Part shown: positions 5,762 through 53,717 of the stretch, piece by piece
Layout of the letters: each line of letters starts with the position of its first letter
Numbering within the stretch: the first letter of the stretch is position 1
Notes under the pieces: model-generated
Seen by the model: only the letters and a program-made list of their open reading frames with translations
The model's database searches: none
What the model was told of the DNA's origin: nothing
Program-made: the position numbers and the translations under genes
Source of the DNA: Methylobacterium sp. AMS5
Lineage (GTDB): Bacteria; Pseudomonadota; Alphaproteobacteria; Rhizobiales; Beijerinckiaceae
Reading direction: 5' to 3'
DNA: 64,000 nucleotides
Assembly (NCBI RefSeq): GCF_001542815.1
Contig: NZ_CP006992.1
Span: 3,787,501 to 3,851,500 of the forward strand

Positions 5762-5970
5762 TAGAACCGTATCCGAATTGATTGCATCAGGTCGGCGTCT
5801 TTAGCCTCTTGCTTCGACGCACTTTATTCCGCCGAACCGGCATCCACTTCGTCGGAAAGCGATCTAAAGCATCACCCTGAATATAAGATCAAGGACGATG
5901 CTTCAGTCTCTTTTTTTCGCGTCATCTTTTTCCGAAAGCCGGCAACCACCTTTCGGGACGATGCCTCTAG
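5762..5970. repeat. Dispersed palindromic repeats (family B then family A)
   Basis: 5762-5880 is a degenerate copy of the family with core AGAGCCGTATCCGA...GCATCAGG and a CTTCGTCGGAAAGCG end. 5895-5970 is a copy of the family with core GGCAACCACCTTTCGGGACG. Similar blocks recur near 9.7, 10.1, 19.2, 22.4, 33.6, 49.1, 50.5 and 51.2 kb. The right end CTCTAG supplies the stop codon of the regulator gene at 5967. The rest of the 5336-5966 gap shows no credible gene. Confidence 0.75.
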
Positions 5971-10093: not shown

Positions 10094-10196
10094 AGCATCA
10101 TCCCGAAAGGTGGCTGCAGACTTTCGGAAAAGGATGATGCAAAAACAAGAGGATAGAGCATCGTCCTGGATCCTGTATCCAGGACGATGCTCTATC
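10094..10196. repeat. Dispersed palindromic repeat, family A, longest hairpin
   Basis: It contains the GGTGGCTGCAGACTTTCGGA core, a linker with AAAAACAAGAGGATAG, and a perfect 20-bp hairpin (10152-10171 with 10177-10196, 5-nt loop). The block sits 57 bp downstream of the dadA stop, on the facing side. Confidence 0.85.
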
Positions 10197-47969: not shown

Positions 47970-48251
47970 TCAATACCGATAATTTCGGCTCGGATAGGCC
48001 TGCCCGCCGCCATAACCCGCCCCGCGGGGCTGGACCCGGGAGCCGTAATCGACCTCCCGCCGCGCCCGCCGGTTCGCCAGGGCGCGCCCTGCCAGACAGC
48101 CGGCGACGGCACCGACGACGCCGCGCTCGGCCAGATAGTGCCCGGCGACACCGCCGATGATCGCGCCCTTGATGCAGCCCTTGGCTTCCGCGGTCCCGGC
48201 GCCGAGCCCCGTCATGACCGTCAGCGCCAACGCCGTCGCGAGAATTCGCAT
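47970..48251 (-). CDS. Small exported glycine-zipper-like protein
   Basis: 93 residues. The signal MRILATALALTVMTGLGAGT is cut after AEA. The zipper GAIIGGVAGHYLAERGVVGA continues VAGCLAGRALANRR, then an Arg/Gly/Tyr tail. The GxxxG spacing suits membrane association or self-assembly in the envelope. Small proteins of this type are common in Rhizobiales. Function unknown. Confidence 0.7.
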   Translation of the reverse strand: MRILATALALTVMTGLGAGTAEAKGCIKGAIIGGVAGHYLAERGVVGAVAGCLAGRALANRRARREVDYGSRVQPRGAGYGGGQAYPSRNYRY

Positions 48252-48623
48252 GCTGTTCCTCCCAGGTGGTGGCGGGAGAAACGACGGCGGCGCGATTGGC
48301 GTTCCTTGCGCGCGCCTCGCCGGTCTCGGCGATGGCCGGGAACGAGCGTTCCCGCAGAGGCGCGGCGCAGTTTGTGACGTGTCTCTCCCGGCCGAACAAT
48401 GCCGTAGGACCGAGTGCTCAGGTGCCTGGAGGCTGAGCTTGTGCTCGCACATCGGCACCGGGCGAAGAGGACCCACCGGGTTCGACCCATTGCAAGCCGT
48501 GGGAATGTCCGCACGACGACCTCTGCGACCAGGTCCCGTTTCAAAATCAGGTTGGATGCGATATCGTTTTGCCTGCGCACCCGGCGGAACGGCCCGTCCC
48601 GCATCAATGGAGCTAGTCCACTC

Positions 48624-49100
48624 ATGTTGGACGAATACGGATTTTTCCGTGGCGCTGAACTGGACGAAGGCGCGTTGCCCGCTCTGTATCACTTCGTCTA
48701 CTGCAGCCGCGCCGCCGACGGCGTCGATGACGCGGAGGTCGGCCGTATTGTCGAGTCGGCCCAGCGCCACAATCTCGCGCGCGGCATCACCGGAGTTTTG
48801 GTTTTCGGCAGCGGCATCTTCTTCCAGTGGATTGAGGGGCCGGCCGCCGAGATGCAAAATCTTATCGCGAGCCTGCACGGTGATTCACGCCATCACGATA
48901 TCGTAGCGCTGAGCCAGAGCGAGGAAGAGCGGGAGCGTCTCTATCCGAACTGGGACATGGAGAAGGTCGAGGCCGAGGATATCCGCCTCGTACTACAGGA
49001 CGCCCTCGAGAGCACTGAAGACAAGGACAATATTGCGGCACTGACGCGGATTCTCCAGCAGCTCGACTCCGGCCCTCTCAATTCACTTGGGCGAGGATAG
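48624..49100 (+). CDS. BLUF-domain blue-light sensor (short)
   Basis: 158 residues. The BLUF core (residues about 19-115) has the flavin Tyr in LYHFVYCSR, Asn in RHNLARGITGVLVF, Gln in IFFQWIEGPA and the Trp/Met pair in YPNWDMEKVE, so the photocycle residues are present. No output domain follows, only about 50 helical residues. It signals by protein contact. The stop TAG lies inside the arm of a repeat hairpin. The PpaA-like gene is 454 bp downstream. Confidence 0.9.
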   Translation: MLDEYGFFRGAELDEGALPALYHFVYCSRAADGVDDAEVGRIVESAQRHNLARGITGVLVFGSGIFFQWIEGPAAEMQNLIASLHGDSRHHDIVALSQSEEERERLYPNWDMEKVEAEDIRLVLQDALESTEDKDNIAALTRILQQLDSGPLNSLGRG

Positions 49101-49307
49101 AGCATCGTCCTGGATATCGAATCCAAGGCGATGCTCTATCCTCTTGTTTTTGCATCATCCTTTTCCGAAATCCGGCAACCACCTTTCGGGATGATGCTTG
49201 AGAGCCGTATCCGACCCGATTGCATCAGGCCGGCGTCTCTCGGTCATTGTTTTGGCGCGCATTCCGACGAACCGGTGGCCACTTCGTCGGAATGCGCTCG
49301 AGCCGAA
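49096..49307. repeat. Dispersed repeats, family A followed by family B
   Basis: 49096-49140 is a hairpin with GATAGAGCATCGTCCTGGAT as left arm. The linker contains CTTGTTTTTGCATCATCC and the core CGGCAACCACCTTTCGGGAT. Family B follows: AGAGCCGTATCCGACCC and GACGAACCGGTGGCCACTTC to CGCTCGAG. The hairpin's first five bases are the end of the BLUF gene. Confidence 0.85.
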
Positions 49308-49554
49308 ACAGCACCTGGCAGCCTCCAGCCAACGGATTACTCACATCGTGCCCAAGATGATAATGAGTGCGAACGGAACGAAGAAAAATAATCCTATCTC
49401 TGGCCTGCCGTACGGAACAGTCACAATCCAAAACCAGAACTTTCCGTGAGCTCCTTTACATTCTTCCGGAGAGGCGCTCTGATGTGCTCAAGAGGTGCAC
49501 GGCATCGATCGACAAGCGCCCCCTGCAAAGGAAGAGAGTTCTGGGGAGCGGACC
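49101..49554. other. Interval between the first BLUF gene and the PpaA-like gene
   Basis: The first half is repeats. 49308-49554 holds the probable promoter and leader of the next gene, with AT-rich stretches (GAAAAATAATCC). I see no credible gene. Confidence 0.5.
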
Positions 49555-50469
49555 ATGTCAAACCTCGCTTCGTCCACCGCGGCGTGGACTGACCCGTCGG
49601 CACGTCAAGCCGGTTGGGCCTCAGAGGTTCGGCTTGCCTATGCAAGCAAACGCACGGCCGAGGAGAGCCGCCAGCGCGCGCTCGCTCTCAGCCGCCTTGT
49701 CGAAACAGACATCATCCCTCGTTTGAAGCTGCTTCACCCGCAGCTTGCGCCCGCGGCGAGCGTTCCGCTTGCCAAACCTGATGCGCAGCAGGTCGAAGCC
49801 TTCACGCAGCTCCTCCTCGATTCGAACCTCTCTGCGGCATCGGACGCCGTCAGAAATCATTTAGCCAAAGGCTACTCTACCGAGAGTATGTTCCTTGAAC
49901 TTCTAGCGCCTGCCGCTGCTTTGCTCGGACGCTTATGGGACGAAGATCTCTGCGATTTCATTGAGGTGACTGTGGGCGTCGCTCGCCTTCAGCTCCTCCT
50001 CTCGCAATACAGACCTGAACCAAGGGTTTCATTCCACGACGAACACCGCTCTGCCCTTTTGATGGGAGCGCCCGGCGAGCAGCATACGTTTGGCGTCGCC
50101 CTCGTCGAACAGTTCCTGCAAGTCGCTGGATGGCAGGTCGTGAGCGGCTTGGCGTCCAGCCCTAGCGAGATCTCAAACCTCGTGAGTTCCACGTGGTTCG
50201 ATGTCGTCGGACTAACACTCAGCTGCGAGACGCGCCTCGATCGGCTGACGGCCTCGATCCAGTCGATCCGTGAGGTCTCACGGAACCGTTCTGTCGGCAT
50301 TATGGTGGGCGGCCCCGTCTTCCTCGACAAACCCGAACTCGTCGAGCGTGTCGGAGCGGACGCATCGGCTGTCGATGCGCCGACGGCTGTCCTGCTGGCT
50401 CAGAGACTTCTCGACATCAATCTCGAAAGCAGGCTCCAGCCTGATACCAAGGCCACATCCTACGCGTGA
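49555..50469 (+). CDS. PpaA/AerR-like cobalamin-binding antirepressor
   Basis: 304 residues from ATG 49555 (GGGGAGCGGACC upstream). The N-terminal third is helical. RLWDEDLCDFIEVTVGVARL is the conserved pre-domain helix of PpaA/AppA proteins. The B12-binding fold follows with GAPGEQHTFGVALVEQFLQV, where H177 is the expected cobalamin or haem ligand (E-x-H-x-x-G), then IMVGGPVFLDKPELVERVGA. In purple bacteria such proteins counteract PpsR/CrtJ, the photosynthesis-gene repressor. PpsR is not in this window. The gene sits between two BLUF genes. Confidence 0.85.
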   Translation: MSNLASSTAAWTDPSARQAGWASEVRLAYASKRTAEESRQRALALSRLVETDIIPRLKLLHPQLAPAASVPLAKPDAQQVEAFTQLLLDSNLSAASDAVRNHLAKGYSTESMFLELLAPAAALLGRLWDEDLCDFIEVTVGVARLQLLLSQYRPEPRVSFHDEHRSALLMGAPGEQHTFGVALVEQFLQVAGWQVVSGLASSPSEISNLVSSTWFDVVGLTLSCETRLDRLTASIQSIREVSRNRSVGIMVGGPVFLDKPELVERVGADASAVDAPTAVLLAQRLLDINLESRLQPDTKATSYA

Positions 50470-50485
50470 GTCCAAGATTTCAGAC

Positions 50486-50580
50486 CTAGAGCCGTATCCG
50501 ACCTGATTTCATCAGGCCGGCGCCTCTAGAGCATCGTCCCGAATGGTGGTTGCCGGTTCGTCGGAAAGCGCTCTAACTCG
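50486..50580. repeat. Dispersed repeat, hybrid of families B and A
   Basis: AGAGCCGTATCCGACCTGAT, then GCATCGTCCCGAATGGTGG and the end GTCGGAAAGCGCTCTAA. It lies between the PpaA-like gene and the second BLUF gene. Confidence 0.75.
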
Positions 50581-50596
50581 ATGTGAGGCTGATGCA

Positions 50597-51019
50597 ATGA
50601 ATCTCGTGCAGCTCATCTATGCGTCCCGTCCCTTCGGGTTTGATCAATCTGCCCTGGATAACATCCTCACTCAATCGCAACGCTGCAATACACGAGACGG
50701 ACTGACAGGCGCTCTGATTTGTCGTGGAGACATCTACCTGCAACTTCTGGAAGGCAAGGCAGACGTTATCGATGCGACGTATGCGCGGATCGTCAGAGAT
50801 GACCGTCATCTTGAGATCCATCGCTTATCCTATGCAGCTGCAACCGAGCGTCTTTTTCCGGCCTGGGCCATGCGTAGCGATCCCGCACGCTCTTGGATGT
50901 GGTCCCAGACTGAAGTCGCCAATGGGGCAGCAACTCAGGCATCCCCGGAACACGTGCTTGGGATTTTTCAACGGCTGGCGGCCGAGCCGGATGAACAACC
51001 TCAGCTCACAATCATGTAA
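50597..51019 (+). CDS. BLUF-domain blue-light sensor (second copy)
   Basis: 140 residues. The flavin site has LVQLIYASRPFGFDQ (Tyr), QRCNTRDGLTGALICRG (Asn), DIYLQLLEGKADVIDATYAR (Gln) and LFPAWAMRSDPAR (Trp, Met). A short C-terminal tail follows. It is clearly related to, but well diverged from, the first BLUF protein. The lack of an effector domain and the flanking PpaA-like gene suggest that the two parts of AppA (BLUF and B12-binding) are here separate proteins. Confidence 0.92.
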   Translation: MNLVQLIYASRPFGFDQSALDNILTQSQRCNTRDGLTGALICRGDIYLQLLEGKADVIDATYARIVRDDRHLEIHRLSYAAATERLFPAWAMRSDPARSWMWSQTEVANGAATQASPEHVLGIFQRLAAEPDEQPQLTIM

Positions 51020-51468
51020 TTTGCGATCGGACGGCTTGTATCAATAATCTTGCTTTCGCGCTTTTGAATTAACATGAAATTGTACAATTTTCATCTCAAT
51101 ATCAAGAGCGAATGCGCCAATAATACCCAATGACACTGCGGATCGCTACAGTATCGTCCTGGATATAGGATTCAGGACGATACTCTATCCTCTTGTTTTT
51201 GCATCATCCTTTTCCGAAATCCGGTAATCACCTCTTGGAATGAGGCTCTTGATGTCTGCTTACGGGCAGCTTTCGACGATTTCGGATGACGGGCCTCGGT
51301 CGGATGCGGAACGTCCGCGTCGCGCCGGAAGGCCAAAGTCCAGTTGCCGCCCTTTTCGGGCTCTCGGGGTGTCCGCTTCTCGGCGACACCGCCTCAGCCT
51401 TCGTACAGAACCGGTTTGTGTCATTGACGACCTTTGACGGTACCGCTCAAGCGTGACAGACCGTTGGT
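51020..51468. other. Interval between the second BLUF gene and the ParD-like remnant
   Basis: It includes an AT-rich segment (51050-51125) after the BLUF stop and the repeat. 51246-51468 shows no supported frame. Confidence 0.45.
51149..51245. repeat. Dispersed repeat, family A, degenerate
   Basis: GTATCGTCCTGGATATAGGA and its partly complementary arm, then CTTGTTTTTGCATCATCC and CCGGTAATCACCTCTTGG. More diverged than other copies. Confidence 0.75.
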
Positions 51469-51672
51469 ATGTCGAACACGCCGACCCGCAACGTCTCCCC
51501 CACGGCCGAATTGATCGCCGACATCCACGTTGAAGTTACTTCGGATTACGACTCGAACGCGAGTGAGGTGGTGCGAGCCGGGCTCCGCCTTCGGATCGCG
51601 CGTGACCACACGCGTTCGACGGGTTGCAAGCGAACCCGCGCGGATGATCGTTCAGGTCACCGAGCCGCATGA
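51469..51672 (+). pseudogene. ParD/CopG-type antitoxin remnant
   Basis: The first 45 residues, MSNTPTRNVSPTAELIADIH, then NASEVVRAGLRLRIARDHT, match the ribbon-helix-helix motif of ParD antitoxins (PTRNVxLT...NASEVVRAGLRLLEERE). The usual C-terminal toxin-binding part is replaced by an unrelated frame, and no ParE follows, so this is probably a relict of a type II toxin-antitoxin pair. A functional truncated protein is less likely. Confidence 0.5.
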
Positions 51673-53717
51673 CCGCCTCGAGATCAGCCCCGACATTTCC
51701 ACGGGGTTTCCTCAACGACGTCGTCGCGGTCGAAAGCATCGCGGCCGTGCCCACCATCCTCGATGTGGTCTGTCGCACCACGGGCATGGGCTTCGCCGCC
51801 GTCGCACGTGTCACCGAGGACCACTGGGTCGCCGGCGCCGTCAAGGACGACATCGCCTTCGGCCTCAAGCCCGGTGGCGAGCTGGATCTTGAGACGACCA
51901 TCTGCCACGAGATCCGGCAGAGCGGGGTCCCGGTCATCATCGACCACGTCGCCCATGACCCGGCCTTCTGCGAACATCACACACCCGCCAAGTACGGCTT
52001 CCAGAGCTACATCTCGATGCCCATCGTGCTGCCGGACGGCACGTTCTTCGGCACCCTCTGCGCCATCGATCCGAAGCCCGCCAAGCTCAACACGCCCGCG
52101 GTCGTGGGCATGTTCAAGATGTTCGCCGACCTGATCGGCTTCCACCTCGATGCCAACCAACGCCTTGCATCGCGCACGGCCGAGCGCGACCTCTACGAGA
52201 ACATCGTTCAGTCCTACGCAGAGCCGATCTGCGTCTTCGATCAAGCGTACCGGCTGATCGCCTTCAACAAGGCCCACAACGACGAGTTCTTCCGGGTCAA
52301 CGGCTTCTACACGAAGATCGGCGACGTCTTTCCCGATCTGTTCATTCCGGAGCAGGCCGCCGCGATGCGCGCGAATATGGGCCGCGCGCTGGCGGGCGAG
52401 GCGTACACGGTCGAAGCCGTCTTCGGCCGGGCCGAGTTCGGCCAGCCCTGCTGGGAGATCACCTACACACCCCTACGCGACGCGGCCGGAACGATCGTCG
52501 GCGCCTTCCACCAAGCGCACGACATCAGCGCGCGCCTCAGGGCCGAGGCTGAGCTTCGGGATGCGCAGGACGTGCTGCGGCAGTCGCAGAAGCTGGAGGT
52601 GATCGGCCAGCTCACCGGCGGCGTGGCGCACGATTTCAACAACCTTCTGACAGTCATCAAGTCGTCGACCGACCTCCTCAAGCGGCCGGATCTCGCCGAG
52701 GAAAGGCGCACCCGCTACATCGAGGCGATCTCCACCACGGTGGATCGCGCCGCGAAGCTGACCGGCCAGCTTCTCGCCTTCGCACGGCGGCAGACACTCA
52801 AACCCAAGGTGTTCGCAGCCTGCGGCAGCGTGCGCTCGCTCTCCGAAATGCTGGGTACGCTCACCGATTCTCGCATCACGGTCGTGACCGAGTTGCCGGA
52901 GAACGCCTGCTTCGTGAATGCTGACCCGAGCCAGTTCGACACGGCGCTGGTGAACATGGCGGTGAACGCGCGCGACGCGATGGCGGGTGAGGGGCAGCTC
53001 GCCATTCGCGTGGAGGCCGTCGAGCGGATGCCACCCGTGCGCGCGCACCCCGCGGTACAGGGGCCCTTCGTGGCGGTGTCGATCAGCGACACGGGCAGCG
53101 GCATCGCCAAGGACGTGGTCGAACGGATCTTCGAGCCGTTCTTCACCACCAAAGCGGTCGGGCAAGGCACCGGCCTCGGGCTCAGCCAAGTCTTCGGCTT
53201 TGCCAAGCAGTCACATGGCGAGGTCGTGGTGGACAGCGAGGTCGGACGGGGCACGACCTTCACGCTCTACCTTCCCCGCGTGCCCGGCGAGATCCAGGCG
53301 CCGGAGCCGAGCGAGCCGACGCCCGTGCCGAGCGGTCGCGGCACCTCCGTGCTCGTGGTCGAGGACAACGTCGAGGTCGGCACCTTCGCCACGCAGACCC
53401 TGGCGGAACTCGGCTTCGGCACGGTCTGGGCGGCGAATGCCGCGGAAGCCCTGGCGGAGTTGGCCAAGGACGCGGATCGCTTCGACGTGGTGTTCACGGA
53501 CGTGATGATGCCCGGCATGAACGGCGTCGATCTCGCCCGCGCGATCCAGCGGCTTCACCCCGACCTGCCCGTCGTCCTGACCTCCGGCTACAGCCACGTT
53601 CTGGCCCAGACCGGCACCAACGGGTTCGAGCTTCTGCAGAAGCCCTACTCGGTCGAACAGCTCTCGCGCACCTTGCAGGCGGTTGCCAAACCTGCCCGCC
53701 CGCAAGCGCATCGGTGA
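51669..53717 (+). CDS. Hybrid sensor histidine kinase (GAF-PAS-HisKA-HATPase-REC)
   Basis: 682 residues, no membrane span. GAF is at about 20-160 (CRTTGMGFAAVARVTEDHWV, FGTLCAIDPKPAKLNTP), PAS about 175-295, HisKA with H321 in GVAHDFNNLL, HATPase with NMAVNARDAM and GTGLGLSQVFGFAKQSHGEV, and a C-terminal receiver with D611 in FTDVMMPGMNGVDLA. The GAF lacks the obvious Cys of phytochromes, and the PAS has no LOV Cys motif, so light sensing is not shown. It follows the BLUF cluster. The output partner is unknown. Confidence 0.9.
   Translation: MTASRSAPTFPRGFLNDVVAVESIAAVPTILDVVCRTTGMGFAAVARVTEDHWVAGAVKDDIAFGLKPGGELDLETTICHEIRQSGVPVIIDHVAHDPAFCEHHTPAKYGFQSYISMPIVLPDGTFFGTLCAIDPKPAKLNTPAVVGMFKMFADLIGFHLDANQRLASRTAERDLYENIVQSYAEPICVFDQAYRLIAFNKAHNDEFFRVNGFYTKIGDVFPDLFIPEQAAAMRANMGRALAGEAYTVEAVFGRAEFGQPCWEITYTPLRDAAGTIVGAFHQAHDISARLRAEAELRDAQDVLRQSQKLEVIGQLTGGVAHDFNNLLTVIKSSTDLLKRPDLAEERRTRYIEAISTTVDRAAKLTGQLLAFARRQTLKPKVFAACGSVRSLSEMLGTLTDSRITVVTELPENACFVNADPSQFDTALVNMAVNARDAMAGEGQLAIRVEAVERMPPVRAHPAVQGPFVAVSISDTGSGIAKDVVERIFEPFFTTKAVGQGTGLGLSQVFGFAKQSHGEVVVDSEVGRGTTFTLYLPRVPGEIQAPEPSEPTPVPSGRGTSVLVVEDNVEVGTFATQTLAELGFGTVWAANAAEALAELAKDADRFDVVFTDVMMPGMNGVDLARAIQRLHPDLPVVLTSGYSHVLAQTGTNGFELLQKPYSVEQLSRTLQAVAKPARPQAHR

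Follow-up and report, generated by a model that had tools for sequence, protein, structure and literature searches.

Why should two genes for short blue-light sensors flank a gene for a cobalamin (B12)-binding regulator, far from the regulator's usual partner? The locus in question lies in a 64,000-nt stretch of the Methylobacterium sp. AMS5 genome (contig C1:3787501-3851500 of a 5.6-Mb genome), which we call the window. The host is a pink, methanol-eating, light-using bacterium of the genus Methylobacterium in the broad sense. A preliminary description, drawn from the letters of the window, had called the locus a split AppA, with BLUF, PpaA-like, and BLUF genes standing separately, flavin-site residues and a cobalamin ligand (H177) in place, and a GAF-PAS-HisKA-REC protein next in line. 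Coordinates and Pfam matches bore out this gene content: the first BLUF gene (B1), the PpaA/AerR-like gene (P), and the second BLUF gene (B2) are separate, each with its own start and stop, and all lie on the + strand. We find good support for B1, P, and B2 as an evolutionarily coupled set in a host that also has PpsR and reaction-centre genes. The explanation we lean toward, if only slightly, is that B1-P-B2 is a mobile set for sensing light and B12, in which P would act as a PpsR antirepressor gated by the two BLUF proteins.

An AerR-type regulator between two BLUF proteins

Judged by its motifs, P is of the B12-binding AerR type and not of the haem-binding AppA type. Its B12-binding domain exceeded the Pfam cut-off of 32.1 bits (Table 1). 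Against known structures, P matched AerR (7te2, E 1e-15) better than AppA (4heh, E 4.7e-5), and a profile search gave 88.8 bits for AerR vs. 40.7 for AppA. H177 sits within PGEQHTFG, a form of the ExHxxG cobalamin motif that reads E143-x-H145-x-x-G148 in AerR (PMC6199135). This motif and the cap Trp were present in all 39 P copies and the cap Phe in 38; the corresponding W and F cap B12 in SAerR (PMC9144470). By contrast, the AppA row carried Leu, Arg, and no His at these W/F/His columns, and the SCHIC domain of AppA is described as haem-binding (PMC9144470). A SCHIC pocket of the haem type has no W/F cap and a shifted His, whereas P has the W, the F, and a His of the AerR type.

The same study models T105, S109, and Q112 of AerR against the linker of CrtJ and calls six linker residues universally conserved (PMC9144470). 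The residues equivalent to the modelled T and Q contacts were each kept in 38 of the 39 P copies. For its part, the host PpsR has all six named linker residues, a pattern missing from one of eight loci tested (L240). PpsR is therefore the predicted target of P, given what is known of the family and these contact residues. One PpsR scored over the cut-off in the host genome (C1:5357995-5359317), directly after another PpaA-type gene (pair at C1:5357110-5359317). P lies ~1.5 Mb from ppsR and is not linked upstream of it. Because the ordinary ppaA-ppsR pair stands at that distance, P is a second, paralogous PpaA-type gene, and we name it a PpaA/AerR-type paralogue rather than PpaA itself. Separately, three family genomes carried two PpsR-type genes ~3-4 kb apart (L238, L240, and L244).

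Both BLUF domains scored well over the Pfam cut-off of 25 bits, and BLUF was the sole domain that Pfam found in B1 and B2, with no LOV domain of the LdaP type. The Tyr, Ser, Asn, Gln, Trp, and Met of the photoactive site are all present in the B1 and B2 of the window. Photoactive residues were intact in 29 of 30 B1 copies (window included) and in all 19 B2 copies. The sole exception, in G080 (L067, 8215-8523), is a degenerate B1 without the flavin-site Tyr, Gln, and Met; it adjoins a P with an intact motif. Six of the 30 B1 copies were dropped from the B1 alignment (L080, which has a stop codon in range, and L051, L054, L055, L067, and L076 by choice), as was one of the 19 B2 copies (L055) from the B2 alignment. 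Because the motifs of characterized families are intact, we predict that B1 and B2 bind flavin, as FAD, and that P binds cobalamin.

Neither BLUF protein appears specifically AppA-like in profile comparisons. The top match for B1 was to photoactivated cyclases (65 bits; AppA 56) and that for B2 was to Tll0078 (64.5 bits; AppA 47). Relatives of B1 are numerous (1232 of 1310 candidates had E values of 1e-6 or lower); the host genome has four BLUF genes in total, and the genus has been described as rich in LOV and BLUF proteins (PMC4844311). All three genes of the set are under purifying selection. Between the window and a second genome (G052), dN/dS was 0.07 for B1, 0.18 for P, and 0.14 for B2, and it stayed within 0.07-0.32 across all comparisons with finite dS.

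Distribution and coupled gain and loss

To count as the P paralogue, a match had to reach at least 213 bits; the next lower match (G072, 203.8) was ppsR-linked. Matches were ranked by score and truncated only at the low end, so the range above this threshold is fully covered. Among 111 genomes of the genus, P was found in 34, B1 in 29, and B2 in 18. Most B1 genomes (26 of 29) carry P, as do all 18 B2 genomes, 17 of which carry B1 as well. The one B2 genome in which B1 was not found (G093) is a fragmented 4.2-Mb assembly with P and B2 linked. The preliminary description had proposed looking for conservation of the gene order, and the outcome was mixed: the same trio occurs in many genomes and is not confined to this strain, but membership of the set is kept while the order varies. 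B1-P-B2 was found in 8 genomes (window included), P-B2-B1 in 6 genomes (7 loci), B1-P in 5, and P-B1 in 1. Across these four arrangements, 20 of the 26 genomes that carry both P and B1 have them as neighbors or with only B2 in between. A trio of orthologues that adjoin one another in so many genomes makes chance a very poor explanation of the B1-P-B2 order.

The genes also occur together when they are not linked. P, B1, and B2 lie on three different contigs in G068, G072, and G108; P and B1 are split between contigs in G058 and G090 and lie ~0.7 Mb apart on a single contig in G013. Of the nine genomes whose B1 is unlinked, six have P, vs. 34 of 111 overall (p ~0.03, calculated by hand and uncorrected for kinship), and P and B1 both occur in all three genomes whose B2 is unlinked. 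These unlinked cases are mostly draft assemblies, and P is near a contig end in G068, G072, and G090. The outer neighbors of the set were common only to close relatives, and simple gene picking over at most ~7 kb on either side of P turned up no widely recurring neighbor other than B1 and B2.

Gains and losses of the three genes were well correlated on an rpoB tree of 108 genomes, a quick tree with 52 of its 105 inner branches starred. Three genomes (G073, G077, and G078) were dropped from it for want of an accepted rpoB match; none of them counts among the P, B1, or B2 genomes. The minimum number of state changes was 26 for P, 20 for B1, and 15 for B2. Among 20 independent pairs differing in P, B1 differed concordantly in ~13.9, in the opposite direction in 0, and not at all in 6.1 (median p 1.2e-4). 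In the 12 pairs differing in B2, P was concordant in ~9.8 (p 0.002) and B1 in ~8.8 (p 0.004), again with none opposite. The evolutionary coupling of B1, P, and B2 is thus well supported.

Within the 14-genome rpoB clade that holds the window, this genome is the only one with any of the three genes. Its P is 85-87% identical to the copies in seven genomes, including those of M. bullatum and M. goesingense, that belong to a different rpoB clade. Together, these two results point to horizontal acquisition of the set as a unit. Six of the 39 P copies were left out of the P trees (those of G055 and G079 and four from G096). The four G096 copies (L081, L083, L084, and L085) each stop within 13 bp of a contig end, which suggests a repeated or mobile element that breaks this assembly at P. 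Plasmid carriage was considered and rejected: among 13 plasmid records that contain a P relative, a close P occurred in one (M. bullatum, a 2.8-Mb record), with B1 ~260 bp away, and the regions of three others (H2, H4, and H6) had no annotated BLUF. Plasmids of two Methylobacterium strains (L092 and L093) carry another, more distant PpaA-type gene; in each, a 222-bp hypothetical gene comes 100-110 bp after it.

Upstream elements and inserted repeats

P and B1 each have a conserved element of their own upstream (Table 1). In 33 of 37 P copies, and irrespective of genomic context, the first part of the P element, in the form CTTTACA, stood 70-109 nt before the gene; two more copies have CTTTGACA and two have neither. 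Two G096 copies, which have no upstream sequence, are left out of this count. None of the three ppsR-linked ppaA genes used for comparison has the element. Upstream of B1, a TATCCTGC-like block, which was picked after viewing the alignment, was found 60-63 nt before the gene in 21 of 29 other copies. By locus, it was present at 9 of 9 unlinked B1 genes, 11 of 12 loci with B1 first, and the single P-B1 locus, but at 0 of 7 P-B2-B1 loci, as would be expected if P-B2-B1 forms one operon there.

Table 1. Coordinates of the locus within the window
Feature	Position	Strand	Basis
Conserved leader upstream of B1 (putative own promoter region)	48490..48623	+	TATCCTGC-like block
B1, stand-alone BLUF protein, 158 aa	48624..49100	+	Pfam PF04940, 88.7 bits
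Inserted dispersed palindromic repeat between B1 and P, outside the set	49093..49280 (approximate)	.	No counterpart in three relatives aligned
Promoter-like element TTTACA-N17-TCTGATG, 100 nt upstream of P	49455..49484	+	Conserved across P loci
P, PpaA/AerR-type regulator paralogue, predicted to bind cobalamin, 304 aa	49555..50469	+	PF02310, 42.8 bits; ExHxxG with H177
Inserted dispersed repeat between P and B2, outside the set	50486..50572	.	Extra relative to the 40-46 bp spacer of three relatives
B2, stand-alone BLUF protein, 140 aa	50597..51019	+	PF04940, 89.7 bits
GAF-PAS-HisKA-HATPase-REC hybrid kinase, neighbor judged outside the set	51669..53717	+	Pfam

The spacers of the window are wider than those of its counterparts because dispersed repeats have been inserted into them. 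The gaps measure 454 bp between B1 and P and 127 bp between P and B2, compared with 249-254 and 40-46 bp at the seven other B1-P-B2 loci. The palindromic repeat is ~100 bp long; in the 236 kb of this genome that were analyzed, it occurs as six near-full copies (first 101 bases) and several partial ones, including those at 49098-49198, 51147-51247, 10094-10194, and 5865-5964. It matches RF02600, a Brucella sRNA family in Rfam, at 50.4 bits, below the cut-off of 59.8; because a dispersed repeat nearly matches this family, its members may be repeat elements. When positions 48000-52000 were searched with Rfam, no cobalamin riboswitch reached E 1, and RF02600 on the repeat was the sole strong match.

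Readings of the set and its relation to known systems

In the light-gated antirepressor set that we favor, P, as a duplicated PpaA/AerR antirepressor, would bind cobalamin, and its PpsR-facing cap helix would dock on the linker helix of the host PpsR. B1 and B2 would sense blue light via FAD and act in trans on P or on the P-PpsR complex, presumably through physical contact, much as the BLUF domain of AppA acts in cis on its own C-terminal domain. The expected outcome would be an additional, light-gated tuning of how far photosynthesis genes are repressed, on top of that by the usual ppaA-ppsR pair. The set would thereby probably help light and B12 to set the amount of photosynthesis machinery. 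A bolder version, which we hold only tentatively, is that the AppA logic was built again in trans: BLUF proteins and a duplicated B12-binding PpaA would form a flavin-cobalamin complex controlling PpsR, which spread through Methylobacterium as a movable set, with PpaA independently recruited beside B1 in another genus.

That last element comes from the wider family, of which 397 genomes were sampled. Five genomes outside the genus have a B1 orthologue (71-78%). In one of them, the 82% complete G183, the B1 gene (70% identical) has a second PpaA-type gene 184 bp upstream on the same strand, and the genome's other PpaA gene precedes ppsR. The B1-linked PpaA groups with G183's own PpaA (99/99), and the AU (approximately unbiased) test rejects its placement inside the P clade (p 2.4e-4), although the tree had been seen when the tested grouping was picked, and it contains long branches. 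From this grouping and rejection, a PpaA copy was probably put beside B1 more than once. In another of these genomes (G238), L242 (5770-7981) carries a relative of B2 (57%) separated by 1.7 kb from a fragment that matches just the last 39 residues of B1; the two are perhaps a decayed set, and a full-length B1 is found elsewhere in that genome.

Besides this post hoc choice of grouping, several observations weigh against a light-gated PpsR antirepressor. PpaA stands beside B1 in only one of the five B1 genomes outside the genus; the second PpaA is away from B1 in G215 and G238, only one PpaA was found in G216 and G426, and the B1-linked PpaA of G183 has lost both contact residues, T and Q. Within the genus, P occurs without B1 in 8 of 34 genomes and B1 without P in 3 of 29 (G062, G082, and G086). 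PpsR is present in all 34 genomes with P, but this is uninformative because it is present in 108 of 111. At the position of AerR S109, the third contact in the model, 36 of the 39 P copies have Ala. Finally, the PpsR-type box (TGTN12ACA) occurred in exact form upstream in 1 of 41 P/ppaA regions (38 P and 3 ppsR-linked), 0 of 29 B1 regions, and 0 of 18 B2 regions, and nowhere near the window's own genes. Chance alone would give 2.4, 1.1, and 0.75, so there is no enrichment.

Alternatively, the genes may form a true light-and-B12 module whose target is not PpsR, with P retargeted to, for example, another PAS-type, stress, or pigment regulator. Alongside the lack of box enrichment, the altered third contact, and the losses in G183, the promoter-like element that P does not share with the three ppsR-linked ppaA genes compared fits such a shift. 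Still, the near-universal T and Q contacts argue against it, as do the flanks of P, where gene picking over up to ~7 kb per side showed no gene but B1 and B2 to recur widely; we regard retargeting as rather unlikely. It is less probable, in our view, that the BLUF genes and P are linked passengers of a mobile segment that do not cooperate. The set is patchy and mobile, its contexts differ, the window genome is placed differently by P than by rpoB, and linkage alone yields co-inheritance even of genes that do not interact. For this reason, it is the varied order and the unlinked cases that carry the functional argument: membership is kept through different orders, and the genes co-occur when unlinked. 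The absence of the B1 leader block wherever B1 follows P-B2 (7 of 7 loci) and the separate recruitment in G183 also speak against mere passengers.

Two further ideas start from features named in the preliminary description and fared less well. Its GAF-PAS-HisKA-REC protein, a kinase with GAF, PAS_4, HisKA, HATPase_c, and response regulator domains by Pfam, is indeed the next gene and on the same strand, but it is not conserved with the set. We ruled it out as a member because a close relative (62%) is near P in just 1 of 38 other P loci (G088, ~3.7 kb from P). Four of the remaining 37 have weaker kinase matches (33-42%) and 33 have none within a flank of up to 7 kb. A 649-bp gap with a dispersed repeat inside it also precedes the kinase, and, despite the G088 case, we consider it very improbable that the kinase is the output of BLUF and P signaling. 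The label of a split AppA holds as an analogy, in that the same two kinds of domain lie side by side, but not as descent. An ancestral AppA fusion broken into separate genes is scarcely credible: P has a W/F cap and an ExHxxG motif and AppA has neither, the BLUF profiles are not AppA-specific, and the top 120 listed of the 1307 P homologues include no BLUF fusion. That the two BLUF genes serve as blue-light inputs of different sensitivity, as the preliminary description also suggested, is at most a conjecture.

Among papers on BLUF together with PpaA/AerR, PpsR, SCHIC, or Methylobacterium, no such gene set appeared in the titles or abstract openings listed, a scope that leaves most subscription papers outside; the literature consulted describes no partnership of a short BLUF protein with a PpaA-type protein. 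As stand-alone BLUF proteins with short C-terminal parts, B1 and B2 resemble PixD (Slr1694), Tll0078, and BlrB, whose partners differ from the one proposed here. P resembles the PpaA/AerR proteins of purple bacteria in its ExHxxG motif, its W/F cap, and two of three modelled PpsR contacts; it differs in lacking linkage to ppsR and in having its own promoter-like element and BLUF neighbors. It also differs from LAerR, whose upper ligand is His10 (PMC6199135), since the first 60 residues of the window P contain no His, in an N-terminal part whose alignment is weak.

Light-gated PpsR antirepressors are known elsewhere in AppA and LdaP (for LdaP, PMC10890935). The LdaP/PpaA/PpsR system of Dinoroseobacter shibae is similar to the scheme favored here in that separate blue-light-dependent and B12-dependent antirepressors act on one PpsR, but its light sensor is a LOV protein, and the available text describes no BLUF set with a second PpaA there (PMC10890935). 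In Rhodovulum sulfidophilum, a 22% identical BLUF protein has been called an AppA orthologue (PMC3738892), and an AppA homologue is mentioned for Porphyrobacter (PMC10674011). The AppA design, with flavin light sensing and a PpaA-like output in one protein, is thus known from few species. The set described here resembles AppA of Rhodobacter (Cereibacter) sphaeroides, in which a BLUF sensor is likewise combined with a PpaA-like domain acting on PpsR. Yet AppA is one fused protein with a haem-binding SCHIC domain (PMC9144470), whereas here there are separate genes, two BLUF proteins, and cobalamin motifs of the AerR type. If our reading is correct, the light-sensor-plus-PpaA design recurs on separate, movable genes with a partner of the B12 rather than the haem type, which would help explain how aerobic phototrophic Methylobacterium tunes bacteriochlorophyll to light and B12. 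Such parts could also be mixed in vitro to probe how a BLUF domain talks with a PpaA-type domain.

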